Source of the DNA: Pseudomonadota bacterium
GTDB lineage: Bacteria; Desulfobacterota; Desulfobacteria; Desulfobacterales; RPRI01
Assembly (NCBI GenBank): GCA_018823005.1
Contig: JAHJJB010000023.1
Span: 1 to 46,898, forward strand
Direction: 5' to 3'
Length of the DNA: 46,898 nt
Each line of letters begins with the position of its first letter. Position 1 is the stretch's first letter. Made by a program: the position numbers and the translations under genes. Positions 25,922 through 37,130 of the stretch are shown here, piece after piece. Under the pieces are notes generated by a model. That model was given only the letters and a program-made list of their open reading frames with translations, was not told the DNA's origin and searched no databases.

Positions 25922-27076
25922 TCAAGGTCTTCTCTTGTCATTGAAAATATAATTTGAAATAACAACCTTCTGAATTTCAGATGTGCCTTCGTATATTGTC
26001 AAAACACGGGCATCCCTGTAAAATCTTTCAACAGGATATTCTTTAATATAGCCGTATCCGCCGTGTATCTGCAGAGCCTTTGCCACGGTCCGGTTGACCA
26101 TTTCAGATGCATAGAGCTTTGCCATGGATGCCTCGAGAGAGTATTTTTCTCCCCTGTCTTTCGTGGCGGCCGCCGAAAGGGTCAGCTGGCGTGCCGCTTC
26201 AAGTTCAGTTGCCATTTCTGCAATCATCCATCGGAGTCCCTGGAATTTTGATATGGTCTGGCCGAATTGCTCACGTTCGGTTGAATATTTTACCGCGGCA
26301 TCGAGAGCTGCCTGGGCAACTCCGATTGACTGCGCTCCGATTCCTATCCGCCCTCCGTCAAGAGCTGTCATGGCCACCTTAAAGCCATTTCCCTCACCGC
26401 CAAGAAGATCCTTCTTGTGAACCCTGCAATTATCAAAAATAAGGTCTGTGGTATCGGAAGCCCTCAGACCCATTTTGTCCTCGGTCTTTCCGACAATAAA
26501 CCCGGGGGTACCTTTCGCCAGAAGGAAAGCGCTAATTCCCTTATGCTTTTTTGCAGGATCCGTATTTGCAGTAGCTATTGTAAGTCCGGCGTTTTTTCCT
26601 GTTGTGATAAAACGTTTTGTGCCGTTTAATACATAGTAGTCCCCGTCTTTCACCGCAGATGTCTTCTGGCTCACAGGATCCGAACCGGCCTGCGGTTCGG
26701 TCAGGGCAAAAGCGCCAATGCTTTTCCCTGAAACAAGGGATGGCAGAAACCTTTTTTTCTGGTCCTCCGTCCCAAAGCGGCATATGCTTTCACAGACTAT
26801 AGAATTGTGAACAGACATAACCACTGCGGTAGATGCGCATGAGTAAGCAATCTCTGAAAGAGCAAGGACATAGCTTACCGTATCTGTGCCGGAACCTCCG
26901 TATTCAGGAGGAACCATCATACCCATGAGTCCAAGTTCAGCCATTTTTTCAAAGTTTTCGGCCGGAAACTCCTTCGTTTCATCCCGCTTCATAGCTGTCG
27001 GGGCTATAACTTTTCTCGAAAATTCCCGAACCATGTCCTGGATCATGAGTTGTTCATCGGTAAGAAAATATGACAT
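25922..27076 (-). CDS. Acyl-CoA dehydrogenase (short-chain/butyryl-CoA type)
   Basis: GAFALTEPQAGSDP, QIHGGYGYIKEYPVERFYRDARVLTIYEGTSEIQ. Confidence 0.95.
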   Translation of the reverse strand: MSYFLTDEQLMIQDMVREFSRKVIAPTAMKRDETKEFPAENFEKMAELGLMGMMVPPEYGGSGTDTVSYVLALSEIAYSCASTAVVMSVHNSIVCESICRFGTEDQKKRFLPSLVSGKSIGAFALTEPQAGSDPVSQKTSAVKDGDYYVLNGTKRFITTGKNAGLTIATANTDPAKKHKGISAFLLAKGTPGFIVGKTEDKMGLRASDTTDLIFDNCRVHKKDLLGGEGNGFKVAMTALDGGRIGIGAQSIGVAQAALDAAVKYSTEREQFGQTISKFQGLRWMIAEMATELEAARQLTLSAAATKDRGEKYSLEASMAKLYASEMVNRTVAKALQIHGGYGYIKEYPVERFYRDARVLTIYEGTSEIQKVVISNYIFNDKRRP

Positions 27077-27184: not shown

Positions 27185-27736
27185 TCACGGTCCGTAGATA
27201 ACGACTATCAGCTCCGCCTTTTTTTCCCCGACATTTTTAAGCATATGCCTTATCCCGGAGTTAAAATGCAGTGAGTCGCCTTCTCCCAGCCTGTTGATGT
27301 GCTCACCCACTACTACTTCAACACTTCCTTCAAGGACATATACGAATTCTTCCCCCTCGTGATTATAACTAACCCCTTTATGATTTTGCAGAGGATCAAC
27401 AGTCACCTTGAAGGCTTTCAAATGTTTATTTTCAGCACCGGGGGTGAGTGTTGTGTACGCGTAGTTTTCAGTACGCTTGCTATAGGCTTTAATTCGCTTG
27501 CTTAAAGTCGATTCCTGCTCCCTCAAAAAATATCCGGAATCAATTTCAAGGGCCTTTGCAATCTGGAGCAAAGCTCCGACAGGAGGAAAAACCTTGCCTG
27601 ACTCTATCTTCTTGAGATAATCGATCGAAAAACCCGTTTCATTTGCTATCTGGTCGAGGGATACCTTTTTTTCTTCCCTTACCTTCCGGATTTTCTTGCC
27701 GACCTGGACAATTGAAGTTTCTTTCTTTTTCGGCAT
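27185..27736 (-). CDS. XRE family transcriptional regulator with C-terminal cupin domain
   Basis: VSLDQIANETGFSIDYLKKIESGKVFPPVGALLQIAKAL HTH; C-terminal cupin YNHEGEEFVYVLEGSVEVVVGEHINRLGEGDSLHFNSGIRHMLKN. Confidence 0.93.
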   Translation of the reverse strand: MPKKKETSIVQVGKKIRKVREEKKVSLDQIANETGFSIDYLKKIESGKVFPPVGALLQIAKALEIDSGYFLREQESTLSKRIKAYSKRTENYAYTTLTPGAENKHLKAFKVTVDPLQNHKGVSYNHEGEEFVYVLEGSVEVVVGEHINRLGEGDSLHFNSGIRHMLKNVGEKKAELIVVIYGP

Positions 27737-30146: not shown

Positions 30147-33100
30147 TTACATATTCCTTCTGTATTTGCCGCCAACATCATACAGGGCCTGGGTAATCTG
30201 CCCCAGCGAACAGGTCCTCACAGTATTCATGAGTTCGGCAAATATATTTTCTCCTGACAGGGCAACCTTCTGCATTCTTTTCAACGCCTCAGGAGCTTTA
30301 TCCGCATTCCTTGTTTTGAATTCCTCAAGCCGGAAGAGCTGCGCCTCTTTTTCGCTCTCCGAGGCCCTCGCAAGTTCGACGCAATCCGACATCTCTTCAG
30401 GATCAACATCAGGATCACGGAAGGTATTAACGCCAATAATCGGATATTCACCCGTGTGTTTTAAAGTTTCGTAGTAAATAGACTCTTCCTGAATCCTGTT
30501 TCGCTGGTACCCGGTTTCCATTGCGCCGAGAACACCGCCGCGCTCAGTGATCCTGTCAAATTCCGCAAGGACGGCCTCCTCTACAAGATCGGTCAGTTCC
30601 TCGACTATAAAGCTCCCCTGGTTCATATTCTCGTTATTTGCAAGCCCCCATTCCTTGTTTATTATAAGCTGGATTGCAAGCGCCCGTCTCACGGATTCCG
30701 AGCTCGGAGTGGTTATTGCTTCATCAAACGCGTTCGTATGAAGACTGTTGCAGTTGTCATACACGGCACAAAGGCCCTGCAGCGTTGTTCTGATGTCATT
30801 AAACTGGATATCCTGACTGTGAAGCGATCTCCCCGAAGTCTGTATGTGGTATTTAAGCATCTGCGAACGTTCAGACCCCTTGTATTTCTCCCGCATCGCA
30901 ACAGCCCATATTCTTCTCGCAACCCTTCCTATGACTGTGTACTCGGGATCCATTCCGTTTGAAAAAAAGAAAGAAAGGTTTGGCACAAAGCTGTCAAGCG
31001 GCATGCCTCTCGACAGATAATATTCAACATAGGTAAACCCGTTTGCCAGTGTCAGGGCAAGCTGGGTAATGGGATTTGCGCCCGCCTCGGCTATATGATA
31101 ACCGGAAATGGAAACAGAATAGAAATTCCGGACATTGTTTTTAATAAAATATTCCTGGATATCTCCCATCATCTTCAGGGCAAACTCTATGGAGAAAATG
31201 CAGCTGTTTTGCCCCTGATCTTCCTTTAAAATATCAGCCTGGACAGTACCCCTGACATTTGAGAGCACTATTGAACGTATACCATGGCATTCTTTTTCGT
31301 CAGGATCTCTCCCTTTTTCATTTCTGAACTTGTCTATCTGCTGATCTATGGCGGCATTTAAAAACATCGCAAGCATAATGGGCGCCGGCCCGTTTATCGT
31401 CATCGATACCGACGTATTGGGCGCGCAAAGCTCGAATCCGTCATACAGCATCTTGACATTATCGAGTGAACAGACGCTTACTCCCGAAGTACCAACCTTC
31501 CCGTAAATATCAGGTCGCCTGTCCGGATCATTCCCGAAAAGGGTCACGGAATCAAAAGCCGTTGAAAGCCGTTTTGCATCATAGTTTGCTGAAAGCAGCT
31601 TAAACCTGTTATTGGTCCTTGCCGGGTCACCTTCTCCTGCAAACATTCGGGTTGGATCTTCGTCAACCCGTTTAAGCGGAAAAACACCGGCCGTAAAGGG
31701 GAATTGTCCGGGAACATTCTCCTCCCTCATCCATCTCAGTATTTCTCCCGGATCCATGAACTTTGGCAGGGAAATCTTTGGAATCTTCTGGTGCGAAAGA
31801 GAGAGCGTATAAAGTGGAAGCCTTATTTCTTTATTTCTGACCCTGTATACAAAGTCATCCCCTGAATAACTCTTTTTAATCTCATCCCAATCGGCCAGAA
31901 CATTTTTTGTCTCTTCCGAAAGCTGTTTATCCGCTCCTGCTATTTCTTCCTTTAATCTTGAAAGAATTGCGCCCGTGCTCTCTTTTTTTTCTGTCTCACT
32001 ACCTACAATCTTTTCTGTCTCTTCGAGGTGCCACAATTTCCTGACTGCCCCGGACTGCTCTTTTGTCTCCCTGTGGTAGTTCCTCAGCATATCTGCAATT
32101 TCAGATAGATATCGCGTTCGCTCCGGGGGAATAATAATCGTCTTGGATGACGATTTTTTCCGGTCAGGACGGGAAAGCTCTGAAATCAGTTTTATTCCCT
32201 TTTTTTCAAAGACTTTGTCTAAAATCTCATGATACAATGCCGTAACGCCATCATCATTAAACTTTGATGCTATCGTTCCGAAGACAGGCATTTCATCAAG
32301 CTGTTTTTCCCAGGCTTTTCTGTTCCGCTGAACCTGCTTGCTCACGTCACGAAGGGCGTCTTCGCCTCCACGTTTTTCAAACTTGTTGATGACAACAAGA
32401 TCGGCAAAATCAAGCATATCTATTTTTTCAAGCTGCGAGGCCGCACCGAACTCGCTTGTCATAACGTAAATTGATACGTCCACAAGATCAATTATCTTTG
32501 AATCGCCCTGCCCGATACCCGCCGTTTCAACAACCGCAATATCAAATCCGGCAGCTTTCACGACATCGATAACCTCCGGAAGAGCTTCAGGAATTACCGT
32601 ATCCGACATGCGGGTTGCAATCGACCGCATATACACCCCTGGCCTGCCGATTGCGTTCATACGTATCCTGTCCCCCAGCAAAGCCCCCCCTGACTTTCTG
32701 CGGGACGGGTCACAGCTTATTATTGCAACTTTGATTTCCGGAATGTCGCGCATGAGCCGCAGGATTATCTCGTCGGTAAGAGATGATTTTCCGGCCCCGC
32801 CGGTTCCGGTAATGCCTATAACCGGGACCTTGCTCTTTCTGCCTTCGGAAAGCAGCGGGGTAAAATCGGAGATGTTTCCGTTGTTTTTTGCAAGTTCAAC
32901 TGCCGTTATAAGATGTGCAATCTTCAGTTTGTTGTCCGGAGAAAGGCCGGTAATATCAACTTTCTTCTCATCAACAGTCGGAAAGTCAAGCATCTCCACC
33001 ATATGGTTGATGATTCCCTGGAGTCCGAGCCTGGCCCCGTCTTCCGGCGAGTATATCTTCGCAACTCCGTACGCTTCCAGTTCCCTGCTTTCGTTCGGAA

Positions 33101-33419
33101 CGATGACTCCGCCGCCTCCGCCGAATACCTTGATATGGGAAGCTCCGTTATCACGGAGAAGATCTAACATGTATTTAAAGAACTCCATGTGTCCGCCCTG
33201 ATAACTGGAAACGGCTACTCCCTGAACATCTTCCTGAATGGCTGCTTCGACAATCTCTTCTACCGACCGGTTGTGTCCGAGATGTATTACTTCAACTCCT
33301 GTATCCTGAAGTATTCTGCGCATTATATTTATGGACACATCATGGCCGTCAAAAAGAGATGTTGCTGTAACTATCCTTATATTATGCCTGGGCTTATAGA
33401 CATTTACTTCAACGCTCAT
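30147..33419 (-). CDS. icmF: Fused isobutyryl-CoA mutase IcmF-type (B12-binding / G-protein chaperone / mutase)
   Basis: B12-binding domain [25 protein letters not shown]; GTPase [37 protein letters not shown]; catalytic domain [62 protein letters not shown]. Confidence 0.93.
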
Positions 33420-34084
33420 GCGCCCTCCTTTAATAGTGCCTGGTTCTTTTTTTGTCCTGAGATGCTGAGGATGAATTCGGTTTGATACTCAATATAATCT
33501 TCAAGAGTGTAATGGCGGGCAAGAAACCACCGCCTGAATGTCCACATGTGTCCAAGAACGGATATGTTGTGGGCGGCAAGCTCTATCGCCCTTTCATCGA
33601 GAGGGGCAATGTGCCCCTGTGAGACAAGGCGGGCAATAGCCTCAACAAAGAGGCCTGTTATCCTGAGTTCATTCTCCAACACTTTCTTTTGCCACTGGAG
33701 CGGAAGGGACTGTGTTTCCTGATAAATAAGGAGTATAAAATCACTCATTTTATTACAAACCATGAAATATTCTCTGATAATATCAGCAAGGGCGTCCCTT
33801 CCTCCCGATGATTTTGCCATTACATCGGTTACCCTTTTTTCCACCTCGACATGAATTGAATCGCAAACGAGATAGAGAATATCTTCTTTTGACGCTATAT
33901 ATTCATAAAGAGATCCTATTGAAACACCTGCGGCCTTCGCAATCTGCCTTGTCGATGTTTTATGAAAACCCTTATCAATGAAAAGCTTAACGGCGGCTTC
34001 GGCAATCTGCCGCCGTCTTTTTTCAACAAGGTCAAGATTCTTTACCTGGGTCGGAATATCTTTTGTTCTTTGAAGTTCCTGCAT
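33416..34084 (-). CDS. TetR/AcrR family transcriptional regulator
   Basis: [53 protein letters not shown] overlap with the downstream icmF-type gene. Confidence 0.95.
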
Positions 34085-34389: not shown

Positions 34390-34471
34390 ATTTTTTTATA
34401 TTCAATATTTGGGCATAAAGTCCGCTTATTTTACGAAGTTATTAAAACTCATGGAGGTTGGAGGTATTGCT

Positions 34472-35257
34472 ATGACGGAAGAACAGGTTCTCCTGGCAGA
34501 AGAAAAAGAGGGTATAATGACACTTACTTTAAACCGTCCCCAGGCAATGAATTCTTTAAATTTCAGCATGCTGCATTCTTTGAGGGAGCAGGTGGAAGCT
34601 TTGAGATTCAGATCCGATATAAGAGTTGTCATTATCACGGGATCGGGAGATAAGGCATTCTGCTCGGGAGCAGATCTGAAGGAGCGTGTAACATTGAGCC
34701 CTGTGCAGGTAAAGGAATATATTTTTACGATAAGAAATCTCTTTACTTCGATAGAACTTTTAAATAAGCCTGTGATAGCCGGTGTAAACGGCGTAGCGCT
34801 TGGGGGAGGTACCGAACTTGCCCTGGCATCAGATATCCGCATAGCATCCACAAATGCCACCATGGGACTCACAGAAACGCGCCTTGCTATTATCCCGGGA
34901 GCAGGTGGAACCCAGAGGCTTCCAAGGCTGGTTGGCCGGGGCAAAGCAAAAGAGTTGATATTCACCGGGAAGAGAATTGATGCACAGGAAGCTCTGTCTA
35001 TAGGGCTTGTCAATAAAATCTGCGAAAAGGATGACCTTGTAAAAGAATGTATGCTGATGGCTGCCATGATATGCGAAACAGGCCCCATAGCAATAGAGCA
35101 GGCAAAATATGCAATAAATTTCGGGATTGAAACCGATATTCAGACCGGCCTTGCAATAGAATCGAATGCCTACTGGGTGACAATACCGACGGAAGACCGT
35201 CTTGAAGGACTTGCGGCTTTTCGCGAAAAAAGAAAACCGGTATACAAGGGAAAATAA
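34472..35257 (+). CDS. Enoyl-CoA hydratase/isomerase, AUH/methylglutaconyl-CoA hydratase-like
   Basis: AFCSGADLKERV, GVALGGGTELALASDIRIASTNATMGLTETRLAIIPGAGGTQRLPRLVG, TIPTEDRLEGLAAFREKRKPVYKGK; ggaggt before ATG 34472 (tracked start 34409). Confidence 0.93.
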   Translation: MTEEQVLLAEEKEGIMTLTLNRPQAMNSLNFSMLHSLREQVEALRFRSDIRVVIITGSGDKAFCSGADLKERVTLSPVQVKEYIFTIRNLFTSIELLNKPVIAGVNGVALGGGTELALASDIRIASTNATMGLTETRLAIIPGAGGTQRLPRLVGRGKAKELIFTGKRIDAQEALSIGLVNKICEKDDLVKECMLMAAMICETGPIAIEQAKYAINFGIETDIQTGLAIESNAYWVTIPTEDRLEGLAAFREKRKPVYKGK

Positions 35258-35349: not shown

Positions 35350-36369
35350 ATGGCGCTTATGAATTATCCGAAAAAGGTTGTACTGGGAGACATAACCGTA
35401 AGAGATGGTTTCCAGCATGAAGAAAAGTTTATTCCGACTGATGCAAAGGTCTGGGTTGCGGAACAGCTTCTGCTCGCCGGTTTTAAAAGAATCGAAGTCA
35501 CAAACTACGGAAACCCGACAGGCATGCCGCAGTTTAAGGATGCCGATGCGGTGATGAAACGCCTTCGCGGAAGCAAAAAAGCGGGGCATCTTTTGAAGGA
35601 TGCTGAAATCACGACCATAACTATCAGGGAAAAAGCGGTTGATAGAGCTATTATTGCCAAAAAGGAAGGTTACGGCCCCGACAGGATACTTTTCATGGTC
35701 TCAACAAGTGAGGCTCATCACAAGAAAAATTCCGGATTGTCCCTCGCCGAGTACTGGAAGATGTGCGCAGATTATATTCCCAAGGCTCATGAAGCCGGAA
35801 TTAAAGTCTGCGGAACGGTCAGCACAATATGGGGCTGTCCCATAGCAGGTCCGACCGAGCTGAAAGATGCCGTTGCTTTTACTAAACGTTGGCTCGATAT
35901 CGGAGCAGACGACATAGAACATGCAGATCATGACGGTTCGGCCGCGCCGAACAAGGTTTTTGAGTATTTTTCCATGATCCTTGATGAAATTCCGGATAAA
36001 TCAAAGCATATCGCTCATTTCCATACAACAAGAGGATGGGGCCTTGCCAATGTACTCGCTGCCCTTCAGGCCGGAATCACCCATTTTGAATCCACAATCG
36101 GCGCAATAGGCGGCCAGCCGGCAAATTTTGTGGACGGCGTCCCCGTGGCAGGAACAGGCGCATACTATTATTCCGACCCGTCAATCACGGGGCTCGTATC
36201 AACCGAAGATATGGTCGTGATGATGGATGAAATGGGCATCGATACCGGCATTAATGTTGACAAGCTTCTGGACATCGGGAGGATGACCGAAAGGATAGTC
36301 GGAAGGCGTCTTCGATCCGAATGCGCTCATACAGGAAGAATTCCAAAGGAGCTGACCGGACGGAAATAA
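35350..36369 (+). CDS. Hydroxymethylglutaryl-CoA lyase-like TIM-barrel protein with non-canonical active site
   Basis: DITVRDGFQHEEKF, HFHTTRGWGLANVLAALQAGITHFESTIGAIGGQPANF, TEDMVVMMDEMGIDTGINVDKLL. Confidence 0.85.
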   Translation: MALMNYPKKVVLGDITVRDGFQHEEKFIPTDAKVWVAEQLLLAGFKRIEVTNYGNPTGMPQFKDADAVMKRLRGSKKAGHLLKDAEITTITIREKAVDRAIIAKKEGYGPDRILFMVSTSEAHHKKNSGLSLAEYWKMCADYIPKAHEAGIKVCGTVSTIWGCPIAGPTELKDAVAFTKRWLDIGADDIEHADHDGSAAPNKVFEYFSMILDEIPDKSKHIAHFHTTRGWGLANVLAALQAGITHFESTIGAIGGQPANFVDGVPVAGTGAYYYSDPSITGLVSTEDMVVMMDEMGIDTGINVDKLLDIGRMTERIVGRRLRSECAHTGRIPKELTGRK

Positions 36370-36383
36370 CAGGAGATATCTCG

Positions 36384-37130
36384 ATGCCTGACAGAATTGA
36401 TTCGATACAGGACCTTGACCACGAACAGACGGCCCGCCTGATCATCGACATGTTCCACCGAATAATAGTTCATTATGCCCTGTGGTACACCGAAATCAGG
36501 CACCAGATGGGCACGGAAAGGGCGCTCGAAGCTCTGAAGACAGCATCTGAAAGAGGCTATGAAATCCAGATGAAGAGGCTGGGGAAAGTCCTTGGCTTTG
36601 AAATGAAGGACGGTATACCTCTCCCCATGCTGAACATGTCTAAAGAGAAGCTGTCCGACCTTATGGATTGCGCTGCCGCGAACTGGATTGCAAATGACGG
36701 TGTCTGGTTCCAGGCAGTTGAATTTACAAACGGGATGATAGATGCCAAACGGTGCAATGATACCTGCTGGGCGCACTTCTCACCCTTTGAAGCGTGGACT
36801 ATAAGGAGATTTTTAAATCTTCCCGATAACCCTGGACTTGAGGGCCTCAAAAGAGCCCTCAATTTCCGCATATACGCCCGGCTGAACACACAGTCTGTAG
36901 TCGATGACACTCCGAACAGTTTTATCTTCCGGATGAATGAATGCCGCGTTCAGTCTGCAAGAAAACGGAAAGGGCTTGATGATTATCCGTGCAAATCGGG
37001 AGGCATGGTCGAATATACTTACTTTGCAAGAAGCATTGATCCCAGAATCATTACAGAATGCGTCGGTTGTCCCCCGGACAAACATCCTGACGACTGGTTC
37101 TGCGCATGGCGGTTCATACTAAAAGAATAG
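36384..37130 (+). CDS. DUF6125-like Cys-rich protein, unknown function
   Basis: Conserved-looking Cys/Trp-rich region: RCNDTCWAHFSPFEAW, NECRV, YPCK, ECVGCPPDKHPDDWFCAWRF; 14-nt gap from the lyase stop with aggaga RBS. Confidence 0.65.
   Translation: MPDRIDSIQDLDHEQTARLIIDMFHRIIVHYALWYTEIRHQMGTERALEALKTASERGYEIQMKRLGKVLGFEMKDGIPLPMLNMSKEKLSDLMDCAAANWIANDGVWFQAVEFTNGMIDAKRCNDTCWAHFSPFEAWTIRRFLNLPDNPGLEGLKRALNFRIYARLNTQSVVDDTPNSFIFRMNECRVQSARKRKGLDDYPCKSGGMVEYTYFARSIDPRIITECVGCPPDKHPDDWFCAWRFILKE

Follow-up and report, generated by a model that had tools for sequence, protein, structure and literature searches.

A widespread cysteine-less branch of HMG-CoA-lyase-like proteins with a putative place in bacterial isovalerate oxidation

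HMG-CoA lyase (HMGL) is a textbook enzyme, and the question raised by this locus is what a relative of it does when the catalytic cysteine has become glutamine and a metal-binding asparagine has become leucine. The gene lies in a stretch of 46,898 nucleotides, analysed as a whole and called the window here. In HMGL, Arg41, Glu72, Tyr167 and Cys266 are the critical residues, and Mg2+ is bound by Asp42, Asn275, His233 and His235 (PMC6941031). No paper on a cysteine-less HMGL was found in the literature searched. The gene and the residues compared, with human HMGL numbering as the reference, were located as follows.

35350..36369, plus strand: GGQP-type HMG-CoA-lyase-like gene; the translated open reading frame has 339 residues and matches PF00682
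35401..35406, plus strand: Arg18-Asp19, the retained equivalents of catalytic Arg41 and metal ligand Asp42 in the human enzyme (alignment, clade survey)
35917..35934, plus strand: the region E190-H-A-D193-H194-D195 (clade alignment)
36016..36024, plus strand: His223-x-His225, the metal ligands His233/His235, kept (alignment, clade survey)
36115..36117, plus strand: Gln256 (CAG) at the position of catalytic Cys266 (translation, alignment with human HMGL)
36121..36180, plus strand: lengthened lid after GGQP (alignment; low model confidence)
36193..36195, plus strand: Leu282 at the position of metal ligand Asn275 (alignment, clade survey)

PF00682 was the sole profile matched (7e-34; 117.8 bits, gathering cut-off 29 bits); the protein did not fall into the beta-keto acid cleavage enzyme (BKACE) family PF05853, and its score of 186.4 bits with the NCBIfam HMG-CoA lyase model NF004283 was below the cut-off of 246 bits. 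Its best solved relatives were HMG-CoA lyases. An AlphaFold2 model built from 31 sequences had a mean pLDDT of 87.9, with lid residues 257-271 below 50, and every one of the 14 top Foldseek matches of this model was an HMG-CoA lyase (target-normalised TM-score 0.91-0.95). The protein is a member of the DRE-TIM/HMGL fold, as a first-pass annotation, made from the sequence alone, had assigned it. It shares fold, operon position and presumed products with human HMGCL (2cw6/3mp3), B. subtilis YngG (1ydo) and the A. baumannii enzyme (6nds), and is about 28% identical to HMG-CoA lyases, but carries Gln, Leu, His and Asp where the canonical enzymes have Cys266, Asn275, Thr205 and Ile206, together with a longer lid. 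Homocitrate and 2-isopropylmalate synthases, which are DRE-TIM enzymes, have the barrel and the metal site in common with it; however, their reaction runs the opposite way and the fold match was weaker (TM-score about 0.65-0.70 over the query).

The active site was compared between human HMGCL, the window protein and 114 distinct sequences of its clade (clade A). The window protein keeps the equivalents of Arg41, Asp42, Gln45, Glu72, Asn138, Asp204, His233, His235 and Glu279, including the RDG and HxH motifs already recognised in the first pass. Across the clade, the catalytic Arg41 and Glu72 equivalents were retained in 114/114 sequences. Three metal ligands (Asp42, His233 and His235) are kept, while the fourth, Asn275, is Leu in all 114, the segment SITGLVSTED of the window protein aligning with ASGNLATED; Cys266 is Gln in all 114 as well, so that both losses first read from a single protein hold throughout the clade. 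The GG loop and TED are separated by 38 residues where human HMGL has 21, and the insertion estimated earlier at about 15 residues is present and comes to about 17. A further change had been missed: the conserved D-T-x-G of canonical enzymes is D-H-D-G in the window protein. Around the kept Asp204 (Asp193), Ser201 is replaced by Glu190, Thr205 by His194 and Ile206 by Asp195, and these four residues are invariant (114/114), as are Gln256, Leu282, Asn52 and Glu247. On the substrate side, Thr205 to His, Ser75 to Asn and Asn275 to Leu are fixed and Leu202 to His occurs in 111/114. Human Tyr167 corresponds to Thr156, at a position that also varies among the cysteine-containing HMGLs (Cys-HMGLs). 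The substitutions are no quirk of one sequence, Gln, Leu and His-Asp being present in every distinct member, and by strict sequence criteria the clade fails two defining HMGL features, Cys266 and Asn275. A relocated catalytic cysteine, supplied by another segment, was considered and rejected: no cysteine is invariant anywhere in the 114 sequences, position 154 being Cys in 59/114 and position 163 in 90/114.

A maximum-likelihood tree of 58 sequences, drawn with a midpoint root, placed all GGQP proteins and one GGWP protein in one clade nested in the Cys-HMGLs (support 95/89), with clade A supported at 97/94. The proposal that GGQP plus the insertion defines a clade was borne out, and this clade arose once inside the Cys-HMGLs. 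The basal GGQP lyases (clades B, B2 and C; among them L081, L088, L091 and L084) have Gln at Cys266 like the window protein but differ from clade A in retaining Asn275 and Thr205. Because they do so, the cysteine appears to have been lost first, and the metal-side and substrate-side changes and the long lid would have come later, in clade A; under the midpoint root, this direction of change rests on the nesting. The basal forms offer natural stepping stones on which the order of changes can be tested, and some of them stand in operons of ACAD, carboxyltransferase, acetoacetate-CoA ligase and enoyl-CoA hydratase (ECH) genes (L081). The GGWP protein (L080, 8695 onward) has DHLG and lies inside the GGQP clade. 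Of 297 genomes surveyed in the phylum, about 70 contained clade members. GTDB contigs, when scanned, yielded at least 516 relatives, of which the best 80 belonged to Desulfobacterota, Bacteroidota, Chlorobiota, Cloacimonadota and Elusimicrobiota; no viral copies of the GGQP lyase were found. The GGQP clade is a large, overlooked and widespread cysteine-less HMGL branch in anaerobic and other bacteria.

What the clade does was approached through its gene neighbourhoods, those of the window being the following.

25922..27076, minus strand: short-chain acyl-CoA dehydrogenase
27185..27736, minus strand: XRE-cupin regulator (gene clusters c11/d16; domains scanned in relatives)
30147..33419, minus strand: IcmF, fused isobutyryl-CoA mutase, divergently transcribed (NF045497, 1897 bits, cut-off 1500)
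33416..34084, minus strand: gene for a TetR-family regulator, separating the divergent units (PF00440, 3e-15)
34409..35257, plus strand: ECH family gene directly upstream of the lyase; second-best solved match human methylglutaconyl-CoA hydratase (AUH)
36321..37130, plus strand: DUF6125 gene downstream of the lyase (PF19620, 2.7e-71); its true start probably lies after the lyase stop

The cluster of the ECH gene was present in 32/61 compared loci. Relatives of the XRE-cupin gene recur beside GGQP lyase operons (L070 from Desulfococcus multivorans, L223, L224, L105 and L109-L112), and its product is a candidate regulator of isovalerate catabolism. The first-pass annotation had tentatively tied the lyase to the acyl-CoA mutase pathway and raised the question whether IcmF and the DUF6125-like gene accompany the clade. 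The DUF6125 gene does recur beside clade members, though it does not define them, and IcmF was rejected as a defining partner, since it stands beside the lyase in just a few of the loci fetched (those of the window genus plus L105, L123 and L076). An enzyme, lyase or condensing, specialised on a product of the IcmF pathway would fit those few loci; yet most loci fetched had no IcmF nearby and many had isovalerate-type genes, with MCC-, ECH- and ACAD-type genes recurring. Moreover, the D. multivorans member was reportedly formed on isovalerate alone, isobutyrate being among the 17 substrates tested (PMC5109826), and we find such a dedicated enzyme hardly credible.

Most of the informative clade loci carry ACAD, ECH and carboxyltransferase genes and then the lyase. 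The best solved relative of the ACAD was isovaleryl-CoA dehydrogenase (IVD) and that of the carboxyltransferase was methylcrotonyl-CoA carboxylase (MCC) beta; in other operons a glutaconyl-CoA decarboxylase A-type subunit takes this place. In several operons acetoacetate-CoA ligase (above the NCBIfam cut-off) or 3-oxoacid CoA-transferase adjoins, and in Bacteroidota the CoA-transferase subunits A/B stand beside the lyase. Among the 297 phylum genomes, 32 of the 34 with operon-type MCC-beta had clade A (raw Fisher p 4e-21, kinship ignored), and acetoacetate-CoA ligase was found in 54/70 clade genomes versus 50/227 others (raw Fisher p 1e-16, kinship ignored). The window genome has this ligase. 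Where a genome has no clade member, comparable operons (L226, L227) contain a GGCP lyase. A clean split between classical MCC and clade A (0/15) was rejected, the classical-type MCC-beta of the window genome lying just under the threshold (3.5e-99). A lysine-fermentation context was likewise rejected, the recurrent Bacteroidota neighbours being ssb, mutY, ribonuclease G/E and trpS. The operons of the window genus and L224 have no neighbouring carboxylase, and full-length MCC-alpha matches were missing from most of the clade genomes tested (G000, G072, G135, G210 and others), many of which have MCC-beta, so the pathway reading is incomplete in places. In Bacteroidota, a PYC_OADA and a biotin-carrier protein replace MCC-alpha beside an MCC-beta-like subunit (L122:3874-5973; cluster also in L133 and L156), which suggests a transcarboxylase-like arrangement.

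In the 3.20-Mbp cluster of D. multivorans DSM 2059, AcsA6, EchA2, Mcc and HmgL were reported as exclusive to cells adapted to 3-methylbutanoate (isovalerate) (PMC5109826). In the D. multivorans genome (G161) we found the clade member at 3,210,300-3,211,304, MCC-beta at 3,211,360 and acetoacetate-CoA ligase at 3,206,464, while the Cys-HMGLs of this genome are encoded at 0.12 and 1.31 Mb, outside the cluster. The published HmgL matches the clade member by coordinates and gene content, and on this match the only HmgL of the isovalerate-specific cluster belongs to the GGQP clade. With the window protein it shares about 62% identity, and it is annotated simply as a lyase, its active site not being discussed in the passages on this cluster.

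By its genomic context the clade would work like HMG-CoA lyase, and we consider it probable that these proteins are metal-dependent DRE-TIM lyases whose rebuilt active site serves the HMG-CoA lyase step in the oxidation of isovalerate and leucine. This reading is favoured by the single origin, the HMGL fold, the operon and genome association and the isovalerate-specific formation described for D. multivorans. Against it count the listing of Cys266 and Asn275 as critical (PMC6941031), the coexistence with Cys-HMGLs, and the fact that induction is not activity. Coexistence is common: a Cys-HMGL-type match (1e-40) occurred in 57/70 clade genomes of the phylum (a few phylum matches being clade-B proteins) and in 26/28 Bacteroidota-type loci tested, and both lyase types share one operon in L055, L057, L059, L060, L062, L063, L046, L122, L133, L156, L158, L160, L163 and L172, which redundancy does not explain well.

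Because Cys-HMGLs usually coexist with clade members, a different cleavage keeps some weight. A separate C-C lyase, or an enzyme of the Claisen type, could serve this branched-acid pathway alongside a normal Cys-HMGL, acting on another substrate or at another step, for example by acetoacetate exchange with an acyl-CoA or on a homologue or stereoisomer of HMG-CoA, and the clade's substrate-side changes (Thr205, Ser75, Leu202 and Asn275) would suit it; we regard it as possible but unlikely. G072, G135 and G210 had no other HMGL-type match at 1e-12, yet all carry acetoacetate-CoA ligase, and G072 (100% complete) has the order ACAD-ECH-MCC-beta-GGQP-XRE/cupin-DUF6125; G083 also had no other HMGL match, but its assembly is 8% contaminated. 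Since the operon of G072 contains MCC, the clade-only genomes outweigh coexistence. In the window genome, the Cys-HMGL adjoins DctP/DctQ/DctM TRAP transporter genes and not an isovalerate operon. Operon position, the acetoacetate-activating partners and the isovalerate-specific D. multivorans member favour HMG-CoA cleavage over the different C-C reaction first suggested. The adjacent gene pairs of several lineages raise another explanation, that the clade protein is a hetero-oligomer partner or regulator of the adjoining canonical HMGL with little activity of its own, and the neighbouring lyases in L122, L163 and L172 do carry altered residues. However, some genomes have a clade member alone, and the Arg41, Glu72, Asp42 and HxH equivalents are kept in 113-114/114, unlike in a decaying pseudoenzyme, which makes this explanation very improbable. 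The Cys-type paralogues concerned have Asp42 to Glu and Asp204 to Asn (L122:9011-9856, L163:7468-8316, L172:9119-9997).

If the clade fills the HMG-CoA lyase step, HMG-CoA, the presumed substrate, would be cleaved to acetyl-CoA and acetoacetate, and either acetoacetate-CoA ligase or 3-oxoacid CoA-transferase would then activate the latter. The enzyme would manage without Cys266, and the protein would supply three of the usual four metal ligands; Arg18, Asp19, Glu49 and the Asp19/His223/His225 metal site would carry out the retro-Claisen step. Judging from conservation, His194-Asp195, possibly aided by Gln256 and the lengthened lid, may assume the acid-base duty and the metal/substrate contact lost with Cys266, Thr205 and Asn275. 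A bolder proposal is that a rebuilt His194-Asp195 site, standing in for Cys266, Thr205 and Asn275, supports a C-C reaction not known for DRE-TIM enzymes, and that branched-acid catabolism requires the clade protein as a further lyase in addition to canonical HMGL; this we hold to be rather doubtful. A branch in at least five phyla without the cysteine and the asparagine would mean, if it fills the same step, that the HMGL active site can be rebuilt. It would also correct the annotation of anaerobic isovalerate degradation, clade proteins scoring below the curated HMGL cut-off.

Two further observations concern the window and its genome. Contig C224 carries an MCC-like gene set (L242:6534-13418) with MCC-beta, biotin carboxylase, biotin carrier, ECH, BKACE (PF05853, 1.8e-79) and ACAD in a row, BKACE occupying the place where a lyase might be expected. 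At 383-1644 on the minus strand of the window, two overlapping genes read, in translation, like a possible AbiEii/AbiEi-type toxin-antitoxin pair.
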